Shown: piece after piece, positions 33,701 through 63,963 of the stretch
How positions within the stretch are numbered: the stretch's first letter is position 1
Layout of the letters: each line of letters begins with the position of its first letter
NCBI GenBank assembly: GCA_963575645.1
Contig: OY754469.1
Span: forward strand, 16,944,001-17,008,000
DNA from: Xanthostigma xanthostigma
Taxonomy: Eukaryota > Arthropoda > Insecta > Raphidioptera > Raphidiidae
Length of the DNA: 64,000 nucleotides
Reading direction: 5' to 3'
Program-made: the position numbers and the translations under genes
Notes under the pieces: model-generated
What the model saw: the letters and a program-made list of their open reading frames with translations, nothing else
Told to the model about the DNA's origin: nothing
Databases searched by the model: none

Positions 33701-36700
33701 TATATGGTGACGTAGATGACTAGTTACTTCTCTTTATCAGTAGAAAGAGATGTATATATTACATTGAGAAATACACTTTTAGGAACTTTTTATTGCGGGA
33801 AAATCTTTCGAATAATTCCAAAAAAATGTTTTTTAATCTATTTGTATTATAAATTCCAACACCGAAAAAAGAAGTGTGTTATCTATAATATGTCTGTCTA
33901 AAAAATTGATGCGCGTTTTGATTTGTTAGTTCAGATATGCATTTTTTAACATTCTAATTTTAATCATCGCATTTATATTTTGCAAATTATTTTGGCACAG
34001 TTTTAAAACTAAATTTAAAATGTTTAACAAAATATACTACTTAAAATAGTGATTTAAAAAAGTATTTCTAAGTAATATATCGATGTACTGATTGTAATTA
34101 CGAAAATGTGAACGATTAACTACAGTTTTGGTCACTTTCGATCTTTGTTCTTATCTAAACTTTCGACTATTACACTGGATACATTAAAATGTTTATGAAT
34201 GCACAAATAATGGGATCGTAATCTTTTCAATGTATACAAGGTTTAGCCAAATATGAATTAAGCAATCACCGAAAAATAGACATAAGATTGATATTTTTGT
34301 AGTATTTAATGTAAAAGTTAAGTAATGAATTCCTTTGATAAATTTAAATCAAGGAAATTGTTACTTGTTTGTTTCTGGAAATATTTTTTTCTTATATGCC
34401 CATTGCAGAAAATATTTCATTCAATCTATATTCTATGCACTTCGAGTAGACGCACCATTTCAGACTTATCTCGATTTCGAAATATAGATATAGTAGATAC
34501 GTCGGTGAATAAATTTTGGACGGAGCGTCGTCTCAACTGTACCATTTGAAAATAAAAAGCAATTGTTTGATTGGTATTTGGCGGAACTATAATAAACTAG
34601 AAACATAACTGAGTAAGTTTGACTCGAGCCATTAAATAGTATTCAATAGAGACTGATTTTCCTAGTCATGCACATAATAATATTTATTTACACAATTTTC
34701 AAGCGTTGTCAATGTTGTAATATTATATTCATATACTCACCAGTGAAGATAATTTTTTGTGATGTTTTTTAGTTTATACACCGTTAGAACCATAGACTAT
34801 TTTCTAAAAAAAAAACTGATATAAACACCATTTTAGTGGATGTGGGACCTTCATTTGTTTTTCTCTAGAGTTTTCATGGTTATCTTCTAAATAAGAACAA
34901 GCTGTGGTCTATGAGCAATATACTTTTTTTCAATTTACAGAAATGAAATTCATAACGTTTGAAAAACTTAAATATTTTCATATATTACGCAAAATATATT
35001 TTATTTATATTGTTTTCTTTTTTACCATTATGTATGTTTTTTTGTACAAATTTGTTAAAAAGCACTTAGTTCTTTTTTATTTTTGTTACGTATACCCTAT
35101 GTTTTTTCATAGGTCTTCAAGACTGATAAAATGTATATTTCATTAATATAATAATTATTATTTGATCCTAGTTATATTATCTGTATTTATAAATATTAAT
35201 GTTGCTGTTAGTGTTAATTAGTGTCACAGTATGTACTATTAATATTACTTTATTCGTTAGCAAATTTTTTTACCAGTATCATCGCATTTATATGTTCATT
35301 TCATTAGTGTATTTGCCTGTTAATATGGCACATACACTATTCGGACCATTTGAAGGATGTATTTAGGAGATGAAATTATTTTTATGTTCGGAAAATTTAC
35401 GGAATTGTTTGAAAATCAAAAATCCTTTAGTAAAGATTAAAAAGTGCCCTACAAATTTTAACAAAATCACTAGTTTACTAAAGGGTGAATAATTTAGTAC
35501 AGATGCTGAATTCATAAAATTCATGCCGAAGAATACTGAAACTGACAAAAAATTAATTTTTAAAAAGGTATCAAAATTTGCATTAGCAAATACACTATTT
35601 TGTCTGTTGAACTGTTGCACTGCGACAACCTATTTTTATATTTGATATTCTAAGCATTTTTTTCTCAAAATAATTAAATAGGTACTGTGAAAATGATTTT
35701 TTTTAAAATATGATATAGATTTTAGTATTAGTTTTTCTTCAGACATTTTTAAAGTTACCTACATATTAAAATCTCCGTGCCTTTACAAAATTTGTATTTT
35801 TAACGACATTCCATTAGATATTTTGTTTTAAAAGTCGCAATTCAATTCTGTATTGCGTTCAAAATATTAATTATATTAAATGACAGTATGTATGTCATAA
35901 ACTTGTTTATTAAGTAATTGAAACAATTTTATTTTCATTCTAATATATCGAATATTAGTGACGATTCGGCTAATTTTATAAAAAAATTCGTAGTTTTGTT
36001 TTATCTTAACGTTAGAATAATGAATTTAAAAAAAAAACCTTTCTGCAAGTAATTTATATGACTTACGTAGTTTCTTTAAATCTTTTGAATATTATTGTTG
36101 TCAGTAACGTATTTTATAAATTTTATTCTCTATAACTGAATGCAATGCTTTATATTTAAGTTAATTGTCTTTGATTGTATTATATTAGTACTACTATAAT
36201 TTAATATCAGTGGCAGAATAAAAGAAAAATAAAATGATGACATTTTATTTGCCGCTGTTTTATTTGTAACGTTAATTTAGCAAAAATTAACTGTAAAGCC
36301 ATTTTGAAGACTGATTTGATTATTATTCATATTTTTTAGTATACATTTATATTTATATAACTCTACTCTTATTTATCATTTTATTTTTTCTTGGCTTTAA
36401 ACATAATTTTGAAAAGAATTACTTTAATTACAATAGATTGCGAAGATCTCACAAATAGCCTTAAAGTTTACTAAACAAGGGGCATCTTATAAATGACAAA
36501 ATTTATAAACTAAAAATATTTTGATGACCTCATACGCTGTATAAAAAACCTACCTCAATAAATAATAAATAACAGATTTGTATATATTCGTATTATTATA
36601 TAATATAATGAATTTTTGTAATATTTAATATACTACCTATCTAAACTAGTAATCACTACTGTTTGTTCCATGTTTTGAATGAATTATTATTGTCAATCAC

Positions 36701-37580
36701 CATGCAGATTGTGTTATATTATTAAATACGTATACATTAGATACATATTGAAGATTATTCATTTATATTATATTGATTGTTTAATAAATGATTATGAATA
36801 AACTCAAAAATATATATTTAATTCATTTTTTTTTTTACTTTTTAACTTCCCACTATTGAAAATTTTCAAAAAAATGGAAGTTACCGATTTCGGTTTGATT
36901 TTCCATTATCAAGATCTCGACATTTTAGGATCCTAGGAAGCTATAAGTATACTGACTATTTTTGGATGGACAATCGTACGGCGCGCGCTCTGTGTGTATA
37001 TGCAAATTTTTGTCGTGCAATATCTTTAGAGCGAATCAGGCGATTGAGATTCGAAAGGGTTTATTGAGATTTAGATGTTATTAGATTTTGAAGTTAACCG
37101 GTCAAGTAGCTTCAAAGTTATTCAATAACATTCTTTCACGTTTTTGTCGCACAACTCTTAATCTACTTTAAACGGTGACCAAATAAGTTAAAACTTAAAT
37201 TAGCTTAATATAAAACTCTTATACCTACATAACTTTAAAATCATTCTAAAAAAAAGCAAATAAAAAAATCAACAATTCTTTTTCTTATGACTCAAAAATT
37301 CTTAACTATTTTTTTAAAACTTTCAATGTCTTCTAAACATAATAGTATTACAATTATTGTGACGTATTAACACACATGGGAAGTTTCAGGGTTGGCTCAC
37401 AGATCGCGACGCTCCGGTACTTTACATAAGACGGCAAATTATAGACTGCACGCGGATGCATAGATGGCCAGCGGAGGGCCTGTAGTTACCCTTATACAGA
37501 GACAATTATTGTAAATATAACAACACAATAGATGGATTAGCTCGTGACGCCCGTCTCTAATAACTGTGAAAACACCATAA
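30778..37580. other. 3' UTR and AT-rich flank of the BTB-Psq gene
   Basis: The nearest poly(A) signal, AATAAA, after the stop is at about 31,801, but several more follow and the true end is unknown. The stretch is plain AT-rich DNA with no convincing coding frame. A repeat-like piece at ~36,840-37,150 begins AACTTCCCACTATTGAAAAT and has the inverse GGAAGTTA nearby, as seen at LINE ends. Confidence 0.45.
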
Positions 37581-37583
37581 TAG

Positions 37584-37728
37584 TTCTGTTTCAAGCTCTC
37601 TAAGAACGGTAACAGAACCGTCCCAGTCTTGCGCAGTAGCTCAAAAACCAATACAAACAGTTTCGTTTTAGCTGCTACGCAAGACGGTGACAGTTCTGTT
37701 ACCGTTCTCAGAGAGCTTGGACAGAGCT
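37584..37728. mobile_element. Short MITE (copy 2 of the 6,274 family)
   Basis: AAGAACGGTAACAGAACCGT on the left and the inverse CGTTCTCAGAGAGCTTGG side on the right, with the shared GTTTCGTTTTAGCTGCTACG core. It is slightly shorter than copy 1 (lacks the GTTACTGCGCGAGACTG piece). Confidence 0.8.
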
Positions 37729-37849
37729 AATATCTTGATTCATGATAGATAAATAGTAAATACGCACGTTTGAACCGCGGCACCGCGCCGTCTCTATGAA
37801 ACCGGCAGATTAACCTTTGTGTGTGTGTGTGTGCCTGGTGTGTGGCTAT

Positions 37850-38365
37850 TAGTGATGTGCCGGATCGTTAAAAATGTATATCCGCGGATACGGATCTGAA
37901 TACGGATATTTGGTTTCAAGATCCGCGGATACGGATCTTAACTTTCTTAGAGTACGCGGCGGTAAATATTGCACATCGACCTTTGCAAAGAGACTATCTG
38001 TTATGGGAAAAAGTTATTGACCTGAGTTAACTCTCATAACAGATTGTCTCTTTCCAAAGATCGATGTGCAATATCTCATTATAAAGATAGTTTTTTAGTA
38101 CCTTTGAGTTATGTACTATTGGTATGGTACTCACTACGATAAATGTTTGCAATATAAAGGTGCCAAATACGATTTAAAAAAATAAAAAATAATCTGAACG
38201 GAATTTAACAATTTTTCATTATTACCTAATTACCTATATATATAAAATTTCATCTATGAATTGAAAATTAATAAGGTAAAAGATCCGCCAAAAACTAACG
38301 GATACGGATCTTTCTTCTCCCTCGGATATCCGCGGATACGGATACGGATATCCGGCACATCACTA
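37850..38365. mobile_element. hAT-type MITE, copy 2, with 8-bp target duplication
   Basis: TAGTGATGTGCCGGATCGTT at the left and CCGGCACATCACTA at the right. GTGGCTAT lies directly outside both ends, an exact 8-bp target-site duplication, the hAT signature. Relative to copy 1 it is inverted. It also contains the CTTTGCAAAGAG/CTCTTTCCAAAG inner hairpin and extra CGGATACGGAT steps. A spurious open frame crosses its right end. Confidence 0.85.
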
Positions 38366-38772
38366 GTGGCTATTGATGCCAGAGGAAATAGATCAGAGAG
38401 CATCACAGAACAGTAATATTGTTCTGTGGAGAGCATACAGAAGTCAGAAATAGATTCGTCTTCCGAACTATTCTCTGTGTAATCCATAGATACCTATATA
38501 TCTATGGTGTAATCAAATGTTTTACAGTGACTTCATGCGGAATTTCTTTGAACTTAAAAAAATTTCGAAATAGTTGACACACTTAACTGTTACGAGAATC
38601 TTGTAGATGTCTCTGAATATTATAATAATGTTGACAGCTAATAGCTTGTATGACGTCAAATCATACGATCGCATGCTGTCATTTGATTCGTTGACAGTGA
38701 GTATGGTGATCGCCGCAAAATATTCAGATTGAAAGTTATTTCGTAGAGCGGACACAAATCTTTCGTTTTAAA

Positions 38773-41700
38773 ATGGGTGATTTCGAGTCCTTAAATCAAT
38801 TCACCTCGGGTGATGGCTTTAATATAAACGAGTTTTCTGGATTCGAAGGTAAAACTACTCAAGGGTATTTAAAATTGCGATTTTAAATTACTGTTTATAA
38901 ATACACGTCAACAATAAATAATGCTCTAATATTGTTTTTCATTTTTAATTTTTAGACCTGTTGACCAATTGTGAAAGTGAACTAATGAAATCAGAGAATT
39001 TATTTATTGATGAAACGTTCCTGGAAAAACTGGATGACCAATTAATGGACGGAATGACATTAGATATGTTAAATATTCCCGATACAGTTCTCCAGACTCC
39101 GATGGAATTGTCTCAAGAATCTGTTGATGCGAGCCAATATAATCCTAATCAACAAAATATCAACCCGCAAATCTTATCGCCGCATCATAAACAATCACTT
39201 TCCCCCAGTTCCCAATTAAATTCACCTATTTCGCAGCTACACTCTCCAGTAAATTCTTTGCATTCACCAGCACAGACTGTACCTTTGTCACCACCTTCGC
39301 AGGGTGTAATGAATATTCATAGAACTCCCATACATCAAACCAGTCCTGTATTAATACAACCTTGCGTCCCAATTCAAACAACTGCTACAAATAAAGTAAT
39401 GTACACCAGTATGAACCCACTGCAGCATCAGTTGACAATTGGGAACCCACATCAGGTACTTTATATTAATTCTTTCACGCTTTTATTTAAATACAGAACC
39501 CATCGAATAAATGCGGTCAACCACACTTGTACAAGGAGTGCACAAGATTGGTTGAAAAAATTGTGCAGTGTAATTTATTTTAAATTAAGATTAGCATCAT
39601 AATGTAGAGTTGGGATCTTCAGGTCCTAATTTGGATTTACACATTTGATAGTTTTCACAACATATTTATTCAATTATTATTTATATTTTATATGGGTGGC
39701 ACAACAAACCACCATAGGCACCTCATAATATCCTCCTACCACTAACTTAATAACTATAAGACACTCTTTTATATACAAATCTTTGATTAACGTCTGATTA
39801 GAACTCTTCACTAAATAAAATTATCGACCAATTTTTCAGACAATATATTAACAAAATATAATTAATACAATAACGTTTCGATCCCGATTTGGATCTTCTT
39901 CAGAAGGGATCTAAAAATATAAAAAAAATAATTAATACTTATTTAGTTTCTATTTATTGACGTGATAACGTCTTATAAATTGATGAATCACCAATCTTAT
40001 AAATTGATAAAACACCGGCTGCATGTTCGAAAAAGTGTAACGCGTAACGTTCCTAACGTTCCGCCTGACCCTGTACGTGCTTTTTGCTAATTTCTCGCTC
40101 AATTTAAATCAGATCGGTTTGAAACCAGTCTTAAACGAAAGAGGAGAACATTTTACATAGATTTCGTATAACAGAATTTGCCTAAACAGTTTTTTTATAC
40201 AAATTTATATAGAAAAATAGCTGTATAAATGCAACATGAAAACGGCTGAATTTCTAATGTTTAATTCAATTTTTTGACATTAGTATTCTGTGAAATGCAA
40301 AGCCTTCTAAGTTAACTATTGGAATAACTAATTATTATTAGAACATAATACTTTGTAAGTTGCAAACGTCACTTTTGACATTTCTTATCATTCCGACACC
40401 AAGGATAAGCGGATTGAAACCAAATTTTGGGAGGTTTAGGTTATGTATTACGGAATACGTTATCACGTAAAACTATCGTCCGTAAACCGACTTTACAGAC
40501 AATCAATTTTTTTTTAACGAAATTCGTGAAAGATTTATTTAATATTAAAAAGATTTTTTTTAATTTATGTTATTAATATTGTTTAATGAAATATATTTAC
40601 AACTAAATTAATATGGTTAAGCATAATAATTTTTTGCTGACACCTCGTAAACAATAATAATAATAATAATAAAGAATTTATTAAATAGATCTTCAGCGAA
40701 GATATATAACAAGTCAAAATACATTAAAATAATATTAAAAATAATAGCTTACTGCATTTATTGTTTACTAATAACTAATTACTAATATCGGCAATGTGCA
40801 ATCTATTGGTTCGTTTTTTGCATTAGCATTCCTGAAATTTGATCCAAAGAACTATTAATTTAAATAAGTAAATTTTTGTGGGAGTAGGTATATGTTTCCA
40901 ATTCTATTAATTAAAACACTAGATATAGCTTTTGTTTGCTACAATTGTTAAGAAACACCCATTGTTACATCCCTAATATGGCGATGTAAACAATGGGTGT
41001 TTCTTAACAATTGTAGCGAGCAATAGCTATATCTAGTGTTAATATTGTTAGTAAAAATTAATTGAAATGTTAATAATGGGTGAATAGCGAAATTCTAATT
41101 TGTAAATTAGGTACTTATTTATATTTGTTGCTATTTTAATTGTAACCTGAAGATGGATTGTTTATAGCGCTCAACAGTTGAGATCATTAGCGTGCAACTC
41201 GAAGATGCTTACAGTATTAGCGAAACGTCATAATTTAAATATATAAATATTTTTTTGAACCATTATCGTCACACTTAACACAGTCACACAACATAGTATT
41301 ATAATAATATATATCATAATATTTCGCTAAAAACTATTGGTTAATGGTTATTATTTTTGAAATATGTTTGCGTTGTAATATTATTTTTAATTCAAGTGTG
41401 TCGAGCGTCTAATTTATACAACCATTTCATCCATTTCTCAATACTCTTATCGACAGCGCGGCAAATTTCAAAGATGTTGATTTTTTTAAGAACTTGTAGA
41501 GCGTCAATTTGGCGCTTACTGTAGAACGGTAATGTTAATTAGGCATTGGGTGCACCGCTGTAATGTTAGTTTGTAAATGCTTGTGAAATAATTAACTTCT
41601 GTATGATCGACGTATACGTTTTTTCTGTAGGTTCAACTTCAGTTACAACAAGATGTGAAACAACAGAATTTGTCAAAACAGAGAACTGTGAAAGCCCCAC

Positions 41701-44700
41701 AACAACAGTTGATTGCTATTCAGAATTTACCACCGGATAAAATGCAACAAGTGTTACTGCAAGCGAAGCTTATAAAATCGGAACCTCAGTTAAACCAAAC
41801 TGTGCTGTACACAACGACTGCACCGTTAACGAATGTTACGACTGCAACGGTTAGCGGAAATACGGCACCAGGTCAATCGTTGCATACTTTAGTCAATACC
41901 GGAGGAACCATTTTAACGACAGGAATACCGTTGGTATTGGATACAGATAAAGTTGCCATTAACAGAATACAAACAAATCCTACTGGTAAAGAACCTAAAG
42001 TTAAAGAAGTTAAACGTAGTGCTCACAATGCTATTGAAAGGAAATACAGAACGAGCATTAATGATAAAATTGTCGAATTGAAAAATATGATCGTCGGAGT
42101 TGACGCAAAGGTAAATATTCAGTAAGCGAAGGGAGGGCTCACTCAGCGGTCTATATTTTGCTGCGTTGGGAAAAGACAGTACTGCTGATCACATGTTTTT
42201 ATGTAGATAGATTCTAGATTATAGACGCTAAACAGCTGAGATCATCAGTGTGTATTGTTTTTATGTATGTCTCCATTAGAGCGTTTAACAAAATTTAATC
42301 GCTAATGCAGCTTCAACGACCTTTAGGCTGTAAAGTATGATGTTGATGGACTTTTTTGTTTTTTTTTTGTGATTCATTTGCAAAATTGTACAGTTTTTGA
42401 GTGTTAAGTATGCCCTTAGCTCTATTTTTCTTGATGATCTGTTATTTTTATTACGCAAAATTCTATGCGATAATTTTTAGGAACACCGTGTTATACTAGG
42501 AGAAACAACTATACGTATTTTAAATGTGTGTTCTGTTGTTTGTGATATTTGAGTAGCGTGAAGATACCTGAAATCGCGTGATTAACAGTACAGTTGCAAA
42601 AAATGGACACCTGGGATTTTGAAATAACAGTATCAATACATCTAAAATCAATTTTTCAGTTGAACAAATCAGCAATTCTGCGCAAAACGATTGATTACTT
42701 AAAATTCTTACAAAATCAAAATGCAAAATTGAAACAAGAAAATATGTCGTTGAAAATGGCTGCCAGAAAACAATCATTGAAAGATTTGTTGGCTGTCGGT
42801 AATTGTCCAATAGAAGACAAGTTGCCTGACAGCATCAATGACATGACGCCCCCACAATCGGACGCATCGTCTCCACCACAGTCTGACGCTTCGTTACCAC
42901 CGTCACCTGATACTTTCATGTCGATAAAAGAAGAGAGCGATGACGAAGGAATGTCTGTCGGTAGAGGCATGCTAGACCATTCTCGTTTGGCTTTGTGCAT
43001 GTTTATGGTCGCCTTTGTTGCTTTTAATCCGTTTGGATCAGCTTTTCATGGAACTGGAGAAGAAGATATCGATGACTCTAAAGTAGGAACGGGACGTGTA
43101 TTAAGTGAATACAGTAAGACAAATTTATATTTATTCGATAACCTATTATTCAAGGATAATAGTGAAGTATAGATTATATCTACTTAACGATTTTCTTGTA
43201 CTTGTCGAGTATTGTTTTGTGATCTAGTTACTTCAGTGCAATTTAAAACAATGTCAGAAATTAATTTTTTAATCAAAGATATGACTAATTTCTTCTATGT
43301 ATGTGCTTCAAAAACTCATTTGTTTATACCTACCACTTATTTTTATTTTATTTAACTTTTACCAGTTTTGTTTTTCTTTTATTAGCTACTGAATCTGAAA
43401 TGTGGACATGGCTAAGCTCATCATTGCTATTGTTTTTATTGAACGCTGTTATATTACTGGGCTGTTTGATCAAGATATTTGTTTATGGAGACCCTATAAT
43501 GCCCCCAAAATCAAAGGAGTCAACTAATTACTGGAGACATCGGCAGCAATCTGAATTTAATATTTCAAAGGTGGGTGTTTTGTTTACTGATTCATAATAA
43601 TTAATTAAGGAAGCATAATTCACTCCAGATTCTGCGGCAAGAAAAGATCTAAACAAATGCTTCTGTCTGTGAGTGATTGATACAGTACTATGATCGTCAA
43701 ATATTCAATAAAGTAAATTTAATTTTTCAAGCTTTCGATTTTAAATTGTACTTACGTGTGTGATTTTGTATATTTTTTTTCGCACAAAACTCACTTTTTT
43801 TATCCTACTTTTAAATGTTAACAAAATTAATTGCGTATATACCATATATACTCAAATGGGGTCTGTCATAGAGGAAAAGTTTATTTGTGACATAATATCA
43901 AAATAATATTTCAGGGAGATAAAAGTGGAGCCAATCAAGAATTGACCAGATGTCTACGATCGTTCGGGAGTTGTCTACCAGCATCCAGATTTGAATTATT
44001 TATGGCTACGTCATGGCAGATCATTCGTCAAATTTTGCATCGGATGTTTATTGGTCGATGGCTAGCTAGACGCACCGGGGGCTTTTTCATCGATGGGTGC
44101 GTTTTGTGATACTAATATTTTTTTCAAATGGAAGTAGTAAAATAATTGGAGAACTTTTCACTATTTTATTTTGCATTGATTTTAGTACAACTCGCTATGA
44201 AGCACTGAGTTCTTGTAAAGAGCTGGCACTTGTTTATCACCGCTTGAATCAATTACATTTGGCGAATGGGGGTGCGGAATCCAATTTTGGTATGGGTTTT
44301 ATGTTGGCTCTGAACGCAGTCAATATGGCTGAAGCGAGTACTGAATTGCTGACGCCGGTTCAACTAGCTGATATTTATGTTGCCGCCGCTCTAAGGATGA
44401 AGCAATCTTGTCCGTCTTTTTTGAAAGGGATTCATAGGTATAAATTTGCAGATTACTCTGAAAGTTCTGCTGAGTTTATAGGGACTGTTCCTTGGATCAG
44501 GTTAAATAAATCTATTGGTATGCAATAGCTGTGAACAGATAGCCTCACATGACTCTAACTTCTAAAGGTGGCTTCTCACGGCGCGTTTTATCATAGGCCG
44601 CGCCGCGCCGATTTGTACGTGCGAGCACGCGCCCGCCCGTTCTCACGGCGTGCGTTGCGCCGCGCCGCATCCAGACCGAAGTAAGCATAGACGCAGCGTA

Positions 44701-47700
44701 CTTTTTAAAATGTAAATAATATTGTAGTTACTGATCTAGCATTGTAATAACTACACTAACAGGGTTGCCAGACGTACGTGAAGTCTCATACCATTACGAG
44801 ATTTACCGATTTTGTACGAGATACAAGAGTAACAAAATTCTCGTACAATTTTGTACGAGATTTTAACAATGATGACTGCCTTCGCTAGGTATAGCTAAAA
44901 AGTGTAAGAATTTGCATATTTACCTACTTCACACACCACAAAACGATCGACTGGGAGCATCAATAAATAATACAATAATACACCGAACATAGTTTAATGC
45001 GACGTGTTCATCCGTACTACCACGCGCGCGCTCGAGTCACCATGGATGCACCCGCGCCGCGCCGCGCCTTTGACGGGACCGACTTTGTTTGGTAAGGACG
45101 CGCCAGCCCGCGCCACTGCCTTCATACGGCGCAAGCTGGCGCGGCGCGATCCGTGATAAAACGCCGTGAGAAGCCGCCTTAAAACTTCAGCAGAGACTTT
45201 CTGGAACACTTGTATCAAACAATTGAAATATTTTCTTGTAAATCATTTTATCTTATGTGCAGGTATTATCTTGGTCTTGCAAAACAAGTGAGTGTCAATA
45301 GCAGAGAAGAAATGCCGGCTCGTTTACAGTGGCTTTTTACTCCGTATGGTTACCGTTTCTTCGTAACACAACGTTGGACATACAAATCGAATGTTACAAA
45401 TTCACCTTTCAGCAGTTTGGATAATAAAACCGATCCTTTAGCTTATGTTATGAGGGTACGTTGTACTTCAGAAAAAATGCAATATTGCATCATTGGATAT
45501 CAACAAAACTAATATTTTTTCGATATTTAATATTTTTAGACGTATCGCGAACATTTACTGGAAAGAAGTTTACTAACACTAGTAGCTCCGGGAAGCAAAA
45601 CCGATTCTTGCGAAGACGATCCGTTGCGTAAAACGCAGACAGCGGATGTTCTGACGTATGTTCAGCTTCTAATGGAGAATGTTTCATCGAATTCGTCAAA
45701 TCCATTGTTAAAATCAACAATTGACAGTAAGCACTTTAAATATGTTTTGACTGCATCTTTGTGCACAGAACAATGAATGTCTTAGTTCCATCTTTGATAC
45801 GAACCCTGCTAGTATTATTAGCAATAGAAGCAGGTAACTCGCCTTTTTGTTGCCAATTGTTGGAGTGAAAATAGTAATTATTTCAATCAATTAACGTTGG
45901 TAACTTTACTTCACCAATTTAAAAATTTGATGGCGTACACATCTCTGCTGGCAAGAATATTTACTTAGTTCTTATTCAGAACTGAACTGTGATTATTGTT
46001 CAAGCACAATGCCGACACATAGAAATCTACAGTATGTAAACGCGTAAGGTGCACATAGGGAAATTAGCATTGGGTTAAAATACTTGGATCAGAGTTAGCC
46101 ATGACTGCATTAATTGTTATTTCTATTGAATTATCATGGTAATCTTGAGGATTTCTATTTTATTTTGATTTATTTTTATTTTACTTGTCTTTTTTAATAA
46201 TAAAAAGCTCTTATAAATCATTATTTTAATTTTTTTGTACAAAAATAAAACAAAGAAACAACTCCATCTGTTTGGAAACATTTCATTCAAAAATTGTCTG
46301 ACTGGTATGATGTATGCGCGTTGGTAAATCAGTGACCCAATGTCTTTAGGCTCAACACGAATAGGCGGAGATATTTGATCTCGCACCATATTTAAGTATT
46401 TTTGGGAATTTAATGTCCCATTAATAAAAAAAGTCCGATTATGTTGTAATCATTTGAATATTTTCTTCGGTAGTATACACATTCATTTTGCAAAAGAATA
46501 TTATCTGTCAAATTGAAAAACAAGATTTCAAGGCTCACTCTGATCCAGTCATTTTTCCCCAATGTTAATTTCCCTATGTGCACCTTACGTGTTTACATAC
46601 TGTATATGCTGAGTGTTATAACTCTCTTTAGACGCTGATGATCTCAATTGTCGAGCTTTGCTAATCAACAATCTAATCTTACAATTCTCTTTTTATAGGT
46701 TACGAGGATAAAACAGCACATTGGTGGTCCGGAGTCGTCGGCGTGGCTGCTTATTGGCTTCTCGGCGAAGACAGTCAAGCCGAAAGATTATATTCGATCG
46801 TTGAATTTTTGCCAGAACCATTAGCGTCTCAGAGTGATCCACTTCCGAGAGCTGTACTGGCCGCGTTTACAAGCCATAAAAATTTCTTATCCAATTCGCG
46901 ACGCGCGTCAAATAAAACTATTCTTAAACAATGTGATATGGCAAGTTCATTGTTGGAGGACAGTTTGACATACACTAGTTGCAAACAACCCACGAATATG
47001 GTGTTGGTGAGTATTTTGATTTAACCAAATATTATTGTAGTGTTATTTAGATATAGCGTGTTATCATCCCTAACCTATTTTTCGGAGAAGTATAATACGA
47101 AGTTTTTAAATTATTTTTTCTTCATACCTACCCCGATCGAAAGTACGTACTTTCGTCCCTTATAGCAGAGACGAAAGTTTGACATTTACTCCCTGTTACG
47201 CATGAGAAATTTTTTCCTCCCGCCGTTCTCACTGGGAGTAAATGTCAATCTTTCGTCCCTGCTGACAAAAGTACGTACTTTCGAGCGGATATGAAGAAAA
47301 ATCGTATTCACCACACAGGCCTTAAAAGTTGAAATGCCGAGGGCATCATGACGCGCAGGGCCGAAAATTCAACTTTCGACCCTTGTGATGTAATATACTA
47401 TTCATTTGAATTTAGGTATATTAATACAACAATAATTCTGAAGAATTCGTTTTAAAATTTATGACTCACCGACAATTTTTAATTGTCTATATTTTAACAA
47501 GTGTCTAAATTGACCACACTTGTCTATTAAAAGATACATTTAGTATCACGGAGTATAGATAGAAGGAATCCGTACGCAATGTTAAAAAAATTGCTTCGAT
47601 TTGATGGACAGATCTTTCGTAGGTAGAGTGCGCTACTATACACTAAGTTCTAGTTCAAACTTGCGAAACCAATAATCGCAAGTTTTTATAACTGTTGATC

Positions 47701-50700
47701 TTATTGAGTCATTTTAATATTTATCAGTTTAATAATAATAACGTGTCTTGAACATCGGCGCTGTTAGTGTCCAAAAAATGAACTATCATATTTGTGGATG
47801 TATGAAATCATGAAAAAGCCTATGTTGTTAGATTCCTATCTATACTTTGTGGCTTAGTGTCGTCAATACCGCTAGGCAGTGAGACTTAATTGCCACCTGC
47901 GCACATTTGTAGGTTATAATTTAATAGTTACAATTGAAGAGTGAACAAAAGAAGAACGACTGTATTTGTTTACTGGGGTGCATTGTAGTTGCATTGCATG
48001 TCGTATTTAACTATGCAATGTTACTTCCATGCAACCACAGTGGGCAAACATTTCAACGTGGAACTATCAACGAAAAAAAAATTGTGCCGAGGTTAACTGA
48101 TCGTCATTTTCTGTAAAAACGCAATCGACGTTTGATTAAAAACCATAATTTTCAGTTTTGATTCGCGCATTCTAGAGGTATTCAATAAAATGTTATTTTT
48201 TTAGTTGGCGCAGTTATTGGTATGTGACTGGCTATTGGAAACCAGAACGGCGTTATGGGAAGAGGAGGCTGATAAAGATTGTTGGACTCCAGTCCCGGGT
48301 CATATACTGTCCGGCTTCCAAAGAAATGTTGCATCGTTGAGGACTTTGACGCAGTTCATACCAGTGCGTTTTATTTTATCGTGTTTTTTCTTAGTTGAAA
48401 AATACAGAATATCTTTAATATATATTTTTGTTTTAGTCCGCGTTGCCCAGAGTATTTTTATATGAAGCAACAGCGAGATTAATGGCAGGAGCTGAGCCAG
48501 GGCGAACACAACAGCTGTTAGACCGAAGTCTTAGGCATAGACAATCGAAGACTTCAATAATTTGTGGTAAAGGTATGTCATTAAGAGTTTAATTCTATTA
48601 GCGTTTACTTTTTTAGAGTGCCGTATATCTGATTAAAAAACGGAACCCTTATAGGGCCACTCTTGTGCCTGTCTGTATGTTACAGCTTATTTTCCTATTA
48701 GGAATCCTTAAACATTTTAAATACTTAATAAGCACTTTCAAAGTTTAATAAAACATATTTCATTTAACTTTTATAATTCTTATTTCATTTCGTGTTAGAG
48801 ATTAATTACTTGTTTAAAGGCCCAAACCTTCCCATTACTTAAGTAAAAATATTTTTCATTTTAAAAATCTTTATAATAAGCACTTTAGTAAGAGCTCAAT
48901 GCTTTTAAGCATTTTTGAAAATGAAAGTGCTTGATGCTTGAATAAATCAAGCCTTTATGAAAGTGCTCGATGCTCAGTCTTCAAGCACTTACGTTCAATG
49001 CTTTGCCGAGTTCTGGCCTCACTCATAGTTTACCTAGACGAAAATCCTATGTCTTAAAGTTCTTACAGAAAACAGAAAGGTACGGAACCTTCTTCACACG
49101 AGTTCGGCATACACTTGACCGTTTTTTGTTTTGTTCTTTTAAATGAACGATTTTAACAGTTTTGTAGCTCTAGAAATACATTGGTAGATTAGCGGCGCTC
49201 CAGTTCACTATCATACTGTCTTAATTGAGAAGTTACTAGCTTTCTGGTCATTTCATTCTCAATCAGTTTTGATCTCTCATTTGTCGTAGATTATAATGTA
49301 AAGCATTTGTCGTTGGGGGAAAAATAGTCTTTTTAACAGTGAAATAATATTTCAAATTGGTTCAGTAGAAGAGATTACCGGCCGCAAACAAACATACAAA
49401 CTTAACCCCTTTATCTGATATCAGTGTTGATAAAGTTCTCTTAAAATTATGTTTTCAGTGTTAAAATATTTTTTTTGTGATCGCAAAAATATAGATTATA
49501 TTTATGACCACTAAAATCATTTCACAATCTGAGAAGCTATTACACCTTACACTGTGATTTATATTTGTGAAACTTCAGTGCAGTTATAGGGTTAATAATC
49601 TGTACGGTCTTGCTCTTTCCCAAATAAAATATTGACCTTTAAAATTCGTGAGTTGTTGATACCTAATTGATAATTATTATAATAGAAAGGTATCATTTGT
49701 TTTATAAAATCCAGAAAGAAGACCAAATATTTCGTAAACAAGCTGGTTTATGAAAAATATTTCTAATATAGACTTTCTATATATCAAATGTATTATAGAA
49801 ATCAAACTTACCAGATCAGATCTGTTGCTTTATTAGATGTTCAGATGCACATACACTACACTTAAATGTCCACACGATATTGTCGAATAGGTACTTTTTT
49901 TATTTATTACACACAAAGCACTATGAACGTTCAATCAACGAATTACGCAAAAAACAATTGAATCTTAAAAGAAGAACGTTATTTATTGTAAACTAATTGT
50001 TTTGCTTGTTAACGTAAAAGTGGTGAAATAGAAACCAAAAACACAAAAATCCACGTGCTTTTTAAACGCGATATCAATCAGTATTAAATATTACGTCCTT
50101 TTATCGTCTTGTTGTTACACGTATCGCACGTCTCTTACATAAAATGCCGTTGCAATTGCATCTTTGAAAACATTATTTGCATTTCAGCGCCCTCTGACTA
50201 CTAACTATGCATTACTTGTTTTATTTGGTAAAAATATACTGTTTGTTTATTCAACAGAATATTATTGGTTATTCAATTTGTGATGGAGCGTTTTTTTTAT
50301 TTTTATAACACGTTTATGCATTGATTTTTACCAATAGTCATCGAAATTTTTTGTAGGCCTTCAAGAGAAGACGTCATTATATAACCACTAATTTTTTCAA
50401 GTTAAACATTATTATGCCCTATCATTTGGTTAATGCCACATACTTATAACATCTTATAACTACACGTACATCACTAACACTTAACATTTAATTAAAATTT
50501 TATCCTCTGAGATCTGAATACATTTGAATTTTAGAGCTGGTCACACTCAATTTTATTGGTTTACTGAAAAATAACCGTTTTTTAGCACCTAATTCAAACC
50601 AAAACACTGTTAAATTTTGAGACATCTAACTTACCCATGAAGAACTAATACTTGATTATTAAAAAAAATTGGTGTGTGTAACCTTTTACGCGTGGGTGAA

Positions 50701-51117
50701 GTGAAACGTTAATAATCACAAAACAAAGCTCAATCAAAATACTTCAATGCAAATTTATAACTGCAAGTTCTCTTTCATTGAGAATTATTCAGCGACTACT
50801 CAAACTGTGTCGAATCCCGCGCGAGAAAATTATAATAATTATTAGATACCACCTTTTGATAGTGATATAAAATTGATAGGAATCTTATTTTTTTTATAGA
50901 CAAGTCTGCCCAAGAATCAGGGGGTGACCGAGAGCATGCTACAGCGCTATATTTAGCCTGTCGTCATTTACCGGGACAGCTGCTTTCATCTCCGGGAGAA
51001 AGAGCTGGAATGTTGGCAGAAGCTGCAAAAACACTGGAGAGGATCGGCGATAAAAAGAGATTACAGGATTGTTATCATCTCATGAAATCGTTAGGCCCCA
51101 ACTCAGTTACTAGCTGA
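38773..51117 (+). CDS. SREBP: Sterol regulatory element-binding protein (SREBP)
   Basis: Thirteen coding exons join in frame to 1,109 aa: 38773-38848, 38956-39455, 41631-42110, 42660-43113, 43386-43570, 43915-44096, 44186-44437, 45263-45455, 45540-45726, 46699-47006, 48205-48363, 48437-48572, 50900-51117. It is an ER-anchored transcription factor precursor for lipid synthesis genes. The acidic N-terminus ([10 protein letters not shown]..) is an activation region, followed by a Ser/Pro/Gln-rich part. The bHLH-zipper at ~321-395 has HNAIERKYR with the SREBP-specific tyrosine. DHSRLALC (~458-465) opens the first membrane helix and matches the site-2 protease motif; a short lumenal loop has GRVLS, like the site-1 protease RSVLS; a second helix follows ([19 protein letters not shown]). 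The C-terminal half is the SCAP-binding regulatory domain. Length is normal for the family. Intron 10 carries mir-33. Confidence 0.96.
39775..39960. mobile_element. Penelope/hammerhead-like repeat, diverged copy (SREBP intron 2)
   Basis: TTGATTAACGTCTGATTAGA, AATTATCGACCAATTTTTC and GATTTGGATCTTCTTCAGAA match the left arm at 15,415-15,600 with point changes and small deletions. On the - strand this gives CTGAAGAAGATCC..GGGATCGAAACGTT, the same core with its helix-II pairing kept. Confidence 0.8.
40915..41040. mobile_element. Small foldback/MITE, ~57-bp arms (SREBP intron 2)
   Basis: AACACTAGATATAGCTTTTG..CTACAATTGTTAAGAAACAC..ATTGTTACATC is followed, after ~11 bases, by its near-exact inverse. 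The transcript would form a long hairpin, but no known microRNA is recognised. Confidence 0.85.
41155..41240 (+). repeat. Hammerhead-like repeat fragment (SREBP intron 2)
   Basis: CGAAGA-T-GCT-(TACAGTATT)-AGC-GAAACGTC lies at ~41,199-41,225, the same layout as the 15.7 kb palindrome. Just upstream, TATAGCGCTCAACAGTTGAG followed by ATCATTAGCGTG recurs at 42,221 and, inverted, at 46,630. AACCTGAAGATGG lies at 41,144. Confidence 0.5.
44574..45180. mobile_element. GC-rich MITE with strong inverted ends (SREBP intron 7)
   Basis: AAGGTGGCTTCTCACGGCGC then GTTTTATCA at the left, and the inverse TGATAAAACGCCGTGAGAAG then CCGCCTT at the right. Subterminal blocks on both sides are runs of GCGCCGCGCC-type sequence, unlike the AT-rich intron. 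AACTTC lies outside both ends as a possible target duplication. The open frames inside are low-complexity artefacts of the GC bias. Confidence 0.8.
46030..46602 (-). mobile_element. Mariner-type transposon relic (SREBP intron 9)
   Basis: Left end CAGTATGTAAACGCGTAAGG and right end the inverse CCTTACGTGTTTACATACTG, both continuing through GTGCACATAGGGAAATTA and flanked by TA, the Tc1/mariner target duplication. Total 573 bp, so over half the element is deleted. A piece of transposase is readable on the - strand (separate entry). Confidence 0.85.
46264..46431 (-). pseudogene. Mariner/IS630-type transposase fragment
   Basis: The - strand translation reads [20 protein letters not shown], then [20 protein letters not shown] and [16 protein letters not shown]. 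This is the central DDE region: 'GTLN...YL.M....I.P.IR' then the '(Q)[21 protein letters not shown]' stretch. The expected QDGAPPH acidic residue is lost (YQRAYII here), and both ends are missing. It is non-functional. Confidence 0.8.
47112..47310. mobile_element. Foldback, ~75-bp arms (SREBP intron 10)
   Basis: CGAAAGTACGTACTTTCGTC, GACGAAAGTTTGACATTTAC and TCCC are mirrored by GGGAGTAAATGTCAATCTTT, CGTCCCTGCT and AAAGTACGTACTTTCG. Outer TTTTTCTTCATA/TATGAAGAAAAA extends the arms. A second small hairpin (CACACAGG..TTCAACTTTCGACC) adjoins at 47,313-47,392. It lies ~0.6 kb upstream of mir-33 in the same intron. Confidence 0.8.
47967..48050 (+). ncRNA. mir-33: mir-33 precursor in SREBP intron 10
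   Basis: The 5' arm at 47,978-47,998 reads GTGCATTGTAGTTGCATTG followed by CA, which equals the 21-nt vertebrate miR-33a-5p and shares its seed with insect miR-33. The 3' arm (about 48,016-48,037, CAATGTTACTTCCATGCAAC) pairs back on it, with matched blocks GGTTGCAT/GGTGCAT, AGT/AGT and CATTGCAT around a ~17-base loop. The outer stem TGTTTACTG / CAGTGGGCAAACA closes it. It is on the same strand as SREBP and lies wholly within intron 47,007-48,204. mir-33 sits in SREBP introns in both vertebrates and Drosophila, where it targets lipid-metabolism genes, so location and sequence agree. Processing from the host transcript is inferred. Confidence 0.95.
48610..49135 (+). mobile_element. Non-autonomous retroelement-like repeat (SREBP intron 12)
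   Basis: It opens with ACGGAACCCTTATAGGGCCA then CTCTTGTGCCTGTCTGT and closes with GGTACGGAACCTTC..CACACGAGTTCGGCATAC..ACTTGACCGTTTTTTG, a very common insect repeat tail. The middle (about 48,880-49,010) has several AAGTGCTTGATGCTT-like words in tandem. The remainder of the 2.3-kb intron shows nothing else definite. Confidence 0.5.
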
Positions 51118-51244
51118 ATGTAAAATGGAAAGCAAATTTCCAAACTGTTTTATTTATTGCTGTTGAATGTTTTATCTAGTTTTCACGTAGATTGTAATAC
51201 AAAAAATTGTAAATATTTAATGTAAGATTTGTATAGTTTTTATT

Positions 51245-51250
51245 AATAAA
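51245..51250 (+). terminator. SREBP polyadenylation signal
   Basis: First AATAAA after the SREBP stop, 128 bases downstream, in a 3' UTR of normal AT-rich composition. Confidence 0.65.
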
Positions 51251-51597
51251 TTAATTTGTACGCGAATACCTGTTTTTATAAGAATGATTGCTGTTTGAGA
51301 AAAACAAAGTGAAGATACATTTTGATTCCTTACTTCATTCGATATTTTGTAGGGAAAAATTGAATTTTCCGGATTTTAACCACAAATATGCCAAGTTAGT
51401 CGATGATAGCAAAACAGCAGCTGAATCACTCGAAGTGTAAACCTTACTTGCGCGAGTAATCGCTGTGTTCACAGCATATGAGTGTCAAAAAACAAAAATA
51501 GTAGTTTTTATATCTATAATGTAAACATCTACGTTATTGATGAGTGACACGTTTAAACGAGGAGTAGCGAGTTTAAGTCATGAGTTGTGATATTACG

Positions 51598-52085
51598 TCT
51601 AAAGGTGGCACTTCACATGGCTATTTGTGTTCGCTATTGGGTGTTTGTTGTATTTGGCAAAATATATTATGTCGTTCAAGACAAACATGCAAATACGACC
51701 ATCCACACATATGGCAGTCAAATAGCAAATACACAAACATTTGGCAGCAGAACGCAAGGTTCAAAATTCCAGGAATTTTAGCACTGTTTGATTGTCCCAA
51801 TTCATTTTCAATAGTAATTGTTCCAGTTCTCGTTCACAGCACAGACACAAAAATACTGCACGTCCGTACAGGTTCACGGCGCGTGCGCTTCTGAATATAG
51901 CCATTGTGTGGACGGTTTATTTGCCTATTTGACTCCTTTGATGTGCCTCGAAAAACCGACAAGCGCACGGTGACGCGTATTGGCCTTATTTGTCAAATAG
52001 GCAAATAAGGCCAACACTTTGTCAAATAGACCCTCCACACTTGGTAATTGTTTGCCAAATACACAAATACAAATAGCCATGTAAC
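51598..52085. mobile_element. CAAATA-rich MITE, copy 2
   Basis: CTAAAGGTGGCACTTCACAT at the left and ACAAATACAAATAGCCATGT at the right, aligned to 19,483-20,000 throughout. Its right end lacks the outermost AGTGCC seen in copy 1. An open frame at 51,580-51,894 is a by-product and is not conserved in copy 1. Confidence 0.8.
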
Positions 52086-52131
52086 ATTTTAATTATGTAG
52101 GTAATAAAATTTAATAAAAAATTTGTTCAAT

Positions 52132-52426
52132 AAACTTTATAATACGCGCCACGGATCTAAAGGGTTCGGAAGTTAGTCACAAACAGCGTCGCAAAGGCCC
52201 CCACCACCTTCCAACTACCTGAACGGAACGTACGCTCGTCGGTGATTGGCCGTGATCGTTCGTTGCCTTTGTCACTTTCCTGCTTTAAAGTACAGTCGAG
52301 TAGGCTATTGTCATTTTAGTTTTGTTGAGTTGGGAGTTTGTAGTTTTTCAACAGACTGCACAAGCGCAAGCCCGCATTCGCATCTAACTTCCGACCTTTT
52401 AGATTCGTGGCGCGTATTATACTTTA
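52132..52426. mobile_element. MITE between SREBP and C2CD3, ~42-bp inverted ends
   Basis: TATAATACGCGCCACGGATC then TAAAGGGTTCGGAAGTTAG at the left, with the inverse CTAACTTCCGACCTTTTAGA then TTCGTGGCGCGTATTATA at the right. The interior is GC-richer and non-coding. A CACTGGCGTATCAAGAGG fragment of a hAT-like repeat follows at 52,490-52,740. Confidence 0.75.
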
Positions 52427-53209
52427 ATTAGATTATTTACGAAAATTACATTCGTTTTTTTCATTTGGAGGACACTACCCTGAGGACCACTGGCGTATCA
52501 AGAGGGGGGAGGGCAGGTGGGCCTGGCCCACCCTAGAATATTAATTGTTCACATACAAATAACAAGATAAATCTACAATAATCTATATTTTCTTTGTCGT
52601 GAAATTTGTCCAGAAAGTCTTGTTGATCAATTTCGCTTCTATGAACAGTTTTCAAATTGTGTATAAGTGGCAGCTGGTAATGGTAGGTAGAGTTGAAAAT
52701 TTGGCCCCCCCTAGGATAAAATCGTTGCTACGCTTATGATGAGGGCGCATCTAGTCAATGCTTTTAATGATAGGCTAGGTTATTTATGAAAATTACAGCT
52801 GAACTGGTTAGTTGCCCATGTTTCATTTACTTTACGCACTAGTGTTAAATGGGTCATTTTACAACTGCTTATAAACGCATTTAAACAACTTTTTATAGGG
52901 GCTGTGTAACAAATCTGTTATATATGTGTAATACTAGTCGCTATCCGTGGCTTCTTACGAGACTGAGTTGAAACACAGAAGCAACAATAGTAGTGGAGCC
53001 TTTGGCTCTACCGTATAGCAGTACCACTTTAAAACAATGCTTTTACACTTTGATTTTGTTCTTTTTTGGCTAAGAACCTTCCCAGGCACGAGCACAACAA
53101 CGCACCAATTTCATCGTAATCATATGAATGATATAGACGCATAGGTCCTAAACAGATGAAGGAAAATTCATTTTTGTATGATAAAAACAAACTATTGAAA
53201 TAAATGCAT

Positions 53210-61049: not shown

Positions 61050-63963
61050 ATGGCACGATACAATAGAGAAAGAACCATGAATAGTTACGGTGATGGTAAT
61101 GTAACTGTTACGACACCGTTACAACGACAAAACGCCTTTTCAAGATCTCAGGACAGTATCGGTAGATTTTCGGAACGGTCATTACATTGGGATGTAAATA
61201 TTGAAGATGACAGATCTGGTACGTCTAAATTTGACGAAATTCACTAAACACTTTCATTTAATAATTCATTATAAGTCGAGATATATTTAAAGCTAACAGT
61301 GTCTTTAAATGAAAGTGGTGAATAAAATGTTAATATTCAATTTGTTTATAGATGTTAAACCATATTCTATATTATATGTAATAACTGTATCGATATTAAA
61401 ACATCATAATATATATGGAACCATTGTATCATACGATCAAATAAATCTCCAACGAATATAGGTTATGATAAAAAAATGTTTGTCTTTACATTATTCAGTT
61501 AGAGTTAAACTAGACAAAAGTTGCATGATTCTCAAACACTATGCTTTAATGAGCATTTCCTATCCTATTTTTTTATAGAAATTTATTTGTTCGCACGTCG
61601 GTTAGTAAGTGTTCTGTTTTACTTGGAATACAGAATACTGATGTATGACGTAGATACTGACAAAAAAAAATATCTAGCCAACATTCCTAATAATTATTTT
61701 TTCCATTTATTTACAGGTAACGGATGTCAAGCATGTTTGACACGCGTACCTTACGCTACACTTATTGCAACTATAATGTGCCTTCTTGGTGTCGGTATAT
61801 TTTGCGGAACCATGTATCGGGCAGCTACGCTGGCAATTTTGATGGGCGATGAAGTGTTTCATTTACGTCTAATGTGGTATGACACTTCTTTTAAGTTATG
61901 TTTGTTATTCATTTTTTCTAATAGAGTTTAAAAAACATTGCCGTCAAATGCAGGCACCCAAAATTTCAAAAATAATTAATTGAAAACGAATGCTTTAAAC
62001 TTAACTAACAAATGCTACACGTCACATCTATAGGCTGTGTGCAGGAAGCCTATTAGCGCCGCTAGTGGGTAATAGAGAGTTATTGAACTAATTTTTTATG
62101 GAAATCGCGACATGTTTCTAAGATGATAAGTCAAAAACTTTAGTTGGCCACGATGTGTCAAAAAAAAATGTAATAGGGAAAACTGATGTTAATTTGTTTA
62201 CGCTGACAGCGGAACGTCAAATCAGTGCGCCAATGGTCTTTATTTTACTTAAATCGCCATCAGCGCAACAGCCCGGAACACAACAAGCATTTCCAGATCG
62301 CTTAGTTTTCCTATGTTTTCTTTGTAATTAAAAAACTTTATAAAATTATAACTAAGTAGTTTCACCTTTAATAAACATCGCTCACTGACATAAGGAAAAT
62401 TGGAGTTCGAAGTTTCCCCTAGTGCTCACCACAAACGCTCGCATCGAAAAATTTGTAACTCCGCCTCCGTGCACATAGCCCATAGGTAATATACACAAAC
62501 ACAGCTTTGACCTTGAAATTGCTATATTCTCGAACACAATATAATAATTCGACATTGAACGCTCTATCTGGTTGCAAAAAATGAAAGTACATAAAAAAAG
62601 ATTTCACCAATTTCACTATAAGACTACGCCTCCTTGTCAAATTCCTATAGATTTTATTTTTAATTCAACATTTTACTCACAGGTTAGAAGCGGTTCAGAT
62701 GGTTTTTGTTGTGATAGGAGCATCAATGGCAGCTTTAGGTTTTATGATTTTATGTGTCGGTTTTTTGGCAACCGGGGCGACTAGACATCGAGTTTATAGA
62801 GCGTGGCGAACAAGAGTAGGTGGTAGAATCTCGTGTGCCGTGGTAAGTGTCAATTTCAGAAACTGTGATGGAATCTCTGACACTATGATTTTGATTATCG
62901 TAATGCGTTATTATTAATTTTATATTTATGTTTCCTAAGTTTTAATTTAATGATGCATGTCTAGTTTATATCAGTAAGTAAAAAATATTATTATGCTAGG
63001 GCGTTTCATACACTTTCCCTATATTAAGCAGGCTATTCATTAGGTAATACTTGCGTAAACTTGCCCCACTACTTCTATTGCCCGTCTGCAGTCGGTAAAT
63101 AGTTTAAAGCCAAATGTGATGAGTTGTTGACGTCGAATGTTTGTATCATCGTGAAAAGATTCCAGCTATTTGGGCGACGGAACCAATCCAACTTTAAAAA
63201 TATTGACCTACATAATATGTTTCATGTCATGTAAAAATTAATCAAAGCACGCTTAACTAATTTCTTTCTGACAGATCTATAGAACAAAAGAACAGCTGAT
63301 TTTTTTTATTTTCAAAATATTTCCGAAACTATAAAGTTAAGAAAAAACATTTTTTAACGAACTTGATTGAAAAAATAAATAGATTAATAAACCGTTATGA
63401 AAAGTATACCATTATTATATAAAATACGTTATAGCATATATGTCTTTTGCGCATGCGCCGATTTTTCCGAAAACAATAGGGCTCTTCATATTTGCATATC
63501 AAACATTCTCCCAAAATTTGGTTTAAATCCGTTTATCCATTTGATCTGTATCGTGTTCACAGACAAACAGACGCACCGATTTTTTCCAAATATTATTTTT
63601 TTTGAATTCAAGGAACCTCAAAACGAAAAAAAATATTGTACGAACAAAGCTATTATAAAGTTACGTGGCAAATACCGCCTAATGCCCTAATGTATAGATG
63701 ACTTTACATTATAATAAAAATCGAAATAGTGATCATGAGATTTCCATTATTAGCGATGCTAGTGTATTTATTGGTAGACAATAAATTTATAATAATTTTA
63801 ATTTTATTTTAGTTCATGGCGATCACTTACATTCTTGAAATTGCTTGGTTGTTAATGTTTTGTTTCCTTGTGATTGTTACATTCGTTTTCACAACATTTT
63901 GGTCCATGTGTACACTGCCGGAAGTACAAGCATTGAATAAATGTATTGATTTTACCCAATTTA
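61050..63963 (+). CDS. M6: M6 proteolipid (PLP/DM20/M6 family), partial
   Basis: Exons in window: 61050-61218, 61717-61876, 62683-62842, 63813-63963, all in frame; the gene runs past the right edge. M6 proteins are four-pass membrane proteins related to vertebrate proteolipid protein and act at cell membranes and junctions. The long N-terminus (MARYNRERTMNSYGDG..LQRQNAFSRSQDSIGRF) is cytoplasmic. Then come CQACLTRVPYATLIATIMC and GVGIFCGT (helix 1), the conserved FHLRLMW-LEAVQMVFVVIGASMAALG (helix 2), ATRHRVYRAWRTRVGGRI (basic cytoplasmic loop), and ITYILEIAWLLMFCFLVIV (helix 3), then a lumenal/extracellular segment with cysteines. The match to insect M6 is close across all exons. Helix 4 is expected beyond the window. 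The start of the long form has no visible upstream exon, so it may have its own promoter. Confidence 0.92.
63444..63622. repeat. Dispersed repeat, copy 2 (inverse of 19,203), in an M6 intron
   Basis: GCGCATGCGCCGATTTTTCC, AACAATAGGGCTCTTCATAT and TGTATCGTGTTCACAGACAA mirror copy 1. An open frame (63,397-63,690) crosses it by chance. Confidence 0.7.

Follow-up and report, generated by a model that had tools for sequence, protein, structure and literature searches.

Introduction

Whether an intron of an insect SREBP gene carries the microRNA mir-33, and what such an arrangement might tell us about the ancestral form of this microRNA and its coupling to lipid synthesis, is the question raised by the 64,000-nucleotide stretch of Xanthostigma xanthostigma DNA analysed here, which we refer to at its full length as the window. 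In the established model SREBP and miR-33 are transcribed together, and genes for lipid export and breakdown are repressed by the microRNA while SREBP drives synthesis. A preliminary description of the window had placed mir-33 in intron 10 of SREBP, on the host strand.

The mir-33 hairpin and its mature 5' arm

The plus strand at 47978-47998 reads GTGCATTGTAGTTGCATTGCA, and a search for GUGCAUUGUAGUUGCAUUGCA returned this as the single occurrence in the 64-kb window (47978-47998, plus strand, 0 mismatches). No further site with three or fewer mismatches to the 21-mer was found in the window, nor did any of 100 shuffles searched at the same tolerance contain a match (0/100). The miR-33a used for comparison is one that we take to be the human, general mammalian form. 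As given in PMC10527677, where it was taken from miRBase, this miR-33a has the same bases at every position (21/21). The 21-mer was also sought in viral contigs and in the bacterial and archaeal contigs of GTDB, with 0 stretches found in either, and both collections are uninformative with regard to conservation among animals.

The arm lies within a full-length family match. Rfam model RF00667 (mir-33; gathering score 50) matched positions 47973-48040 of the plus strand with 60.1 bits and an E value of 1.4e-11, over model positions 1-69 of 69, and this was the sole gathering-level Rfam match in the 64 kb. On the antisense strand the same model gave 38.5 bits, under the threshold of 50, which we dismissed as a mirror image of the hairpin; a mir-92 match over the hairpin was likewise dismissed (22 bits as compared to a threshold of 47). 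The difference between 60.1 and 38.5 bits favors the sense strand, which is also that of the host.

When folded, positions 47960-48060 of the plus strand gave a structure of -35.7 kcal/mol (z -4.25), and none of 200 shuffles was equally stable; for the antisense strand the fold was -29.9 kcal/mol (z -3.56), with one of 200 shuffles equally good, such folding being usual for the complement of a hairpin. The hairpin was also the most stable among the 80-base stretches of the intron, sampled every 10 bases. On the 5' side of the lower stem 13 paired bases precede the mature start, and the opposite arm, for which we predict the miR-33-3p product, reads CAAUGUUACUUCCAUGCAACCA at 48016-48037 (plus strand), with 17 of its 22 bases paired. 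The fold pairs A47998 with T48014 and G47996 with C48016, which would give the putative arms a 3' overhang of 2 bases on the loop side. Downstream of the hairpin is a CNNC motif (CAAC; Table 1), an element that we take to aid Drosha processing when placed 16-18 bases past the 3p end; here it starts 17 bases past the predicted 3p end, a placement that would arise by chance in about 1 in 13 cases given the C content of the window. An open frame of 62 codons (47928-48116) runs across the hairpin, but we dismissed it as an exon because it lies between the donor and acceptor of the intron, and the spliced frame does not need it to stay open.

The mature duplex contains several mismatches (in the 5' arm 17 of 21 bases are paired), as might be found in a decayed or unexpressed copy that has kept its sequence and from which no small RNA is made. 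Against this, an exact 21-base match together with a complete, above-threshold Rfam match would hardly persist without constraint, mir-33 is single-copy in the window, and a silkworm form of the microRNA, agreeing at 20 of 20 bases, has been sequenced. We therefore consider a decayed or unexpressed copy scarcely credible.

The host gene

The hairpin lies within a coding region of 13 predicted exons (Table 1), all of whose 12 predicted introns (12/12) start with GT and end with AG. These splice sites were predicted from the sequence, by which non-coding 5' exons are not visible. The predicted protein contains an HLH domain (E 5e-15) and has SREBP-1a as its best relative in the PDB (E 1.4e-27); SREBP-2 was matched with an E value of 1.5e-17, and both SREBP-1a and SREBP-2 outranked MITF, TFEB and MAX. 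Both scans were of the 1083 residues of exons 2-13, with 26 N-terminal residues left out, and there were no Pfam or PDB matches outside the HLH-zip region of the spliced protein. Within the basic region aligned to SREBP-1a the host protein has IERKYR as compared to IEKRYR, and the tyrosine in this region is presumably the mark of an SREBP-type bHLH-zip protein. In SREBP proteins two membrane helices and a C-terminal regulatory domain are expected; by eye, the translation has two hydrophobic stretches near the join of exons 4 and 5, followed by a long C-terminal part. An NCBIfam scan of the spliced protein gave 0 families, as expected of a bacterial and archaeal library, and when only the single exon ahead of the hairpin was compared with the PDB, 0 matches were returned at E <=1.

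Table 1. Positions of the mir-33 hairpin, its parts and its predicted SREBP host gene, counted from the first base of the window
Feature	Position	Strand	Remarks
SREBP coding region, 13 predicted exons, 1109 aa	38773..51117	+	spliced frame open throughout
SREBP exon 1 (predicted)	38773-38848	+	weakest part of the gene model
SREBP exon 2 (predicted)	38956-39455	+	
SREBP exon 3 (predicted)	41631-42110	+	
SREBP exon 4 (predicted)	42660-43113	+	
SREBP exon 5 (predicted)	43386-43570	+	
SREBP exon 6 (predicted)	43915-44096	+	
SREBP exon 7 (predicted)	44186-44437	+	
SREBP exon 8 (predicted)	45263-45455	+	
SREBP exon 9 (predicted)	45540-45726	+	
SREBP exon 10 (predicted)	46699-47006	+	
SREBP intron 10 (coding count), mir-33 host	47007..48204	+	1198 bases, phase 0, GTGAGT...TAG
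mir-33 primary hairpin, with lower stem, both mature arms and loop	47965..48048	+	from the fold; outermost pair 47965-48048
miR-33-5p, 21 bases	47978..47998	+	exact match to miR-33a-5p; ends inferred by homology
Inter-arm stretch including terminal loop	47999..48015	+	between the 5' and 3' arms
Predicted miR-33-3p arm	48016..48037	+	opposite arm of the fold; ends predicted
CNNC motif (CAAC)	48054..48057	+	17 bases past the predicted 3p end
SREBP exon 11 (predicted)	48205-48363	+	
SREBP exon 12 (predicted)	48437-48572	+	
SREBP exon 13 (predicted)	50900-51117	+	stop TGA 51115-51117

Several alternative exon borders were considered and set aside. For exon 10 a donor at 47000 was passed over; the phase is 0 with either, and 47006 has the better consensus. 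For exon 4 the sole acceptor in the range first considered, 42631, was out of frame, and 42660 was used; at the other end of this exon 43082 did not keep the frame, and 43104 was in frame with a protein shorter by three residues, while the model uses 43113. An upstream exon screen of 30801-38900 with a donor score of at least 6 yielded no candidate; when relaxed to a donor score of at least 5 it yielded two, from which 38773-38848 was chosen as exon 1. These choices leave the hairpin in the same intron.

The HLH domain and the closest solved relatives, SREBP-1a and SREBP-2, identify the host of mir-33, as modeled, as the SREBP gene on the same strand. Taking together the exact 21-mer, the full-model Rfam match, the stable fold, the SREBP host and the fact that this pairing is known from elsewhere, we have very little doubt that this hairpin represents the mir-33 orthologue of an insect, predicted to lie within an SREBP intron in sense orientation. 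On a count of coding exons, the placement in intron 10 on the host strand is borne out by the Rfam match of 60.1 bits and the 13-exon model. The preliminary description had also claimed that the 5' arm is identical to vertebrate miR-33a, which holds for 21 of 21 bases at a site (47978-47998) unique in the window, and the fold of 47960-48060 that it had proposed as a check has the stable stem expected of it (-35.7 kcal/mol, z -4.25).

The host intron and its possible inheritance

The Rfam core begins 966 bases past the donor of the host intron and ends 164 bases ahead of its acceptor. We note that the number 10 is a count of coding exons that includes the predicted exon at 38773-38848, and that this would otherwise be the ninth visible intron. 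Three coding exons come after the hairpin, and counted backward from the last exon the host intron is the third.

A similar rank is found in mammals. Pig SREBF1 is described in PMC3929038 as having 19 exons and 18 introns with miR-33b in intron 16, and human SREBF2, with 19 exons according to PMC2645360 as compared to the 13 coding exons predicted here, has miR-33a in intron 16. Both likewise leave three exons after the microRNA, an agreement in rank only. The numbers for human SREBF1 and for mouse given in PMC5027541 are off by one, in opposite ways.

The third-from-end rank fits an inherited intron and is no proof of one. This leads us to favor, by a modest degree, the view that mir-33 has been kept in the same phase-0, third-from-end SREBP intron ever since insects and vertebrates last shared an ancestor, with other introns lost or gained around it. 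If the intron is indeed the same in insects and vertebrates, the coupling of lipid synthesis to this microRNA could be dated to the bilaterian ancestor on grounds that go beyond sequence likeness.

Pairing with SREBP in other animals and possible co-regulation

How the locus might operate can be outlined from established family knowledge, from which we infer joint transcription, processing, arm choice and targets. Transcription of SREBP would carry mir-33 along in intron 10, and the hairpin would be cut out of the intron by Drosha/Pasha and then by Dicer. One arm or both might then be loaded into Argonaute, with the repression of seed-matched messages as the outcome. The targets would plausibly include lipid-export and fatty-acid-breakdown genes, while the SREBP protein itself would raise lipid synthesis. 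With regard to SREBP as a possible target, the plus strand at 51118-52600 was searched for seven miR-33 site patterns, each 6 to 8 bases long and among them the 6mer AATGCA, and contains none of them; if the SREBP 3' UTR lies in this stretch, it gives no indication that the microRNA feeds back directly on its host. The nearest AATAAA past the SREBP stop is at 51245, and the 6mer AATGCA has 31 occurrences on the plus strand of the window.

That mir-33 is paired with SREBP in vertebrates and in Drosophila had been stated in the preliminary description; it is in print for both, and the pairing is on record elsewhere as well. For instance, PMC5027541 places human miR-33a in SREBF2 intron 16 and miR-33b in SREBF1 intron 17, and names as further miR-33 hosts mouse SREBF2 intron 15, rabbitfish srebp1 intron 16 and an intron of Drosophila srebp. 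In chicken the host is SREBF2 intron 16 (PMC3953336), and in the oyster cgi-miR-33 lies in an intron of SREBF-1 (PMC4138081). The window shares with vertebrate miR-33a and SREBF2 both the 21-base 5' arm and a host intron in an SREBP-family gene; the loop and the 3' arm were compared with the Rfam consensus. With Drosophila melanogaster miR-33 it has the family and the SREBP host in common, while the likeness to the oyster, a distant protostome whose microRNA is likewise intronic in the SREBP orthologue, is one of location. A further insect with mir-33 in SREBP is therefore expected, and the locus serves as a clean extra case of a microRNA and host gene whose pairing is deeply conserved, for which the mature sequence, the host strand, the distances and the predicted number and phase of the intron are now given.

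Intronic co-regulation may apply here as well, and the published data on co-expression are mixed. Parallel expression of host and miR-33 has been found in human and mouse cells, as cited in PMC3953336, whereas co-expression with the host was unsupported across 10 tissues in chicken in that same study, and the correlation of miR-33 with its host in the oyster was weak (r = 0.58; PMC4138081). The chicken and oyster results would fit an alternative in which the hairpin is real and has its own promoter inside the intron, which would uncouple it from SREBP transcription. Steady-state differences can, however, also stem from processing, the sense orientation fits transcription driven by the host, and the location in SREBP is conserved across distant animals, all of which leads us to regard an independent promoter as improbable. 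Our very high confidence that the feature is mir-33 in an SREBP intron concerns its identity, and an independent promoter would contest its transcription only, so the two assessments overlap.

The mature form in other animals

The preliminary description had further proposed that flies carry changes in the 3' half of the mature sequence, and that the present insect would be a useful witness of the ancestral form. The first proposal stands for Drosophila melanogaster, in which miR-33 is given as GUGCAUUGUAGUCGCAUUGUC (PMC5919617); this differs from the form in the window at positions 13, 20 and 21, and has the same 5' end and seed. It does not stand for flies in general, as mosquitoes keep the 21-mer. 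In Aedes albopictus a sequenced miR-33 has the same 21 bases (40 in the first count column), as has the miR-33 predicted for Culex quinquefasciatus (both PMC2834634), and in Anopheles funestus the agreement is again 21 of 21 bases (PMC5101901). In all three mosquitoes the mature form is identical to that of the window, and it is in the mature sequence that this likeness consists.

Beyond the flies, silkworm bmo-miR-33 was sequenced as a 20-base form of which all 20 bases agree (PMC2824724), and the silkworm homologue of dme-miR-33 is counted among widely distributed miRNAs in PMC2838851. In the silkworm the star strand of miR-33 was found in excess of the miR strand at a ratio of 48 to 1, which indicates that arm choice varies and that the identical 5' arm need not be the main product of the present locus. 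All 21 bases are also present within the miR-33 predicted for Halocynthia, a sea squirt (PMC5399378). For the snail Biomphalaria the first 20 of the 21 bases agree (PMC7328434), and a snail miR-33-3p is marked as intronic in a protein-coding gene (PMC12261956). What appear to be miR-33 matches in the text of PMC4408404 are matches to miR-3389.

From these sequences the vertebrate-like form of miR-33 is probably the ancestral one, with Drosophila as the exception, and to this extent the second proposal holds. The present insect is not a special witness to that form, however, which is shared by several insects; the identical mature form is already known, the Aedes, Culex and silkworm forms having been in print in 2010, and the window adds one more carrier of it.

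Other features of the window

Upstream of SREBP and on the same strand, an open frame at 29926-30777 contains an HTH_psq domain (E 3.6e-12), and resembles what we take to be the end of an ecdysone-response gene of the E93/Mblk-1 type. At 61509-61931, also on the plus strand, an open frame with a Myelin_PLP match (E 1.1e-19) is, we presume, probably the insect M6 proteolipid gene. The minus strand has several long open frames between 53377 and 60209, one of which resembles a C2 domain weakly, at 18.6 bits where the curated threshold is 22, and these perhaps belong, as we suppose, to a large protein with C2 domains, for instance a centriole protein of the C2CD3 type. Lastly, the plus strand at 48640-48649 reads ACGGAACCCT and then TATAGGGCCACTC, and the word ACGGAACCCT strikes us as reminiscent of a repeat that we believe to be common in the genomes of Lepidoptera (moths and butterflies).
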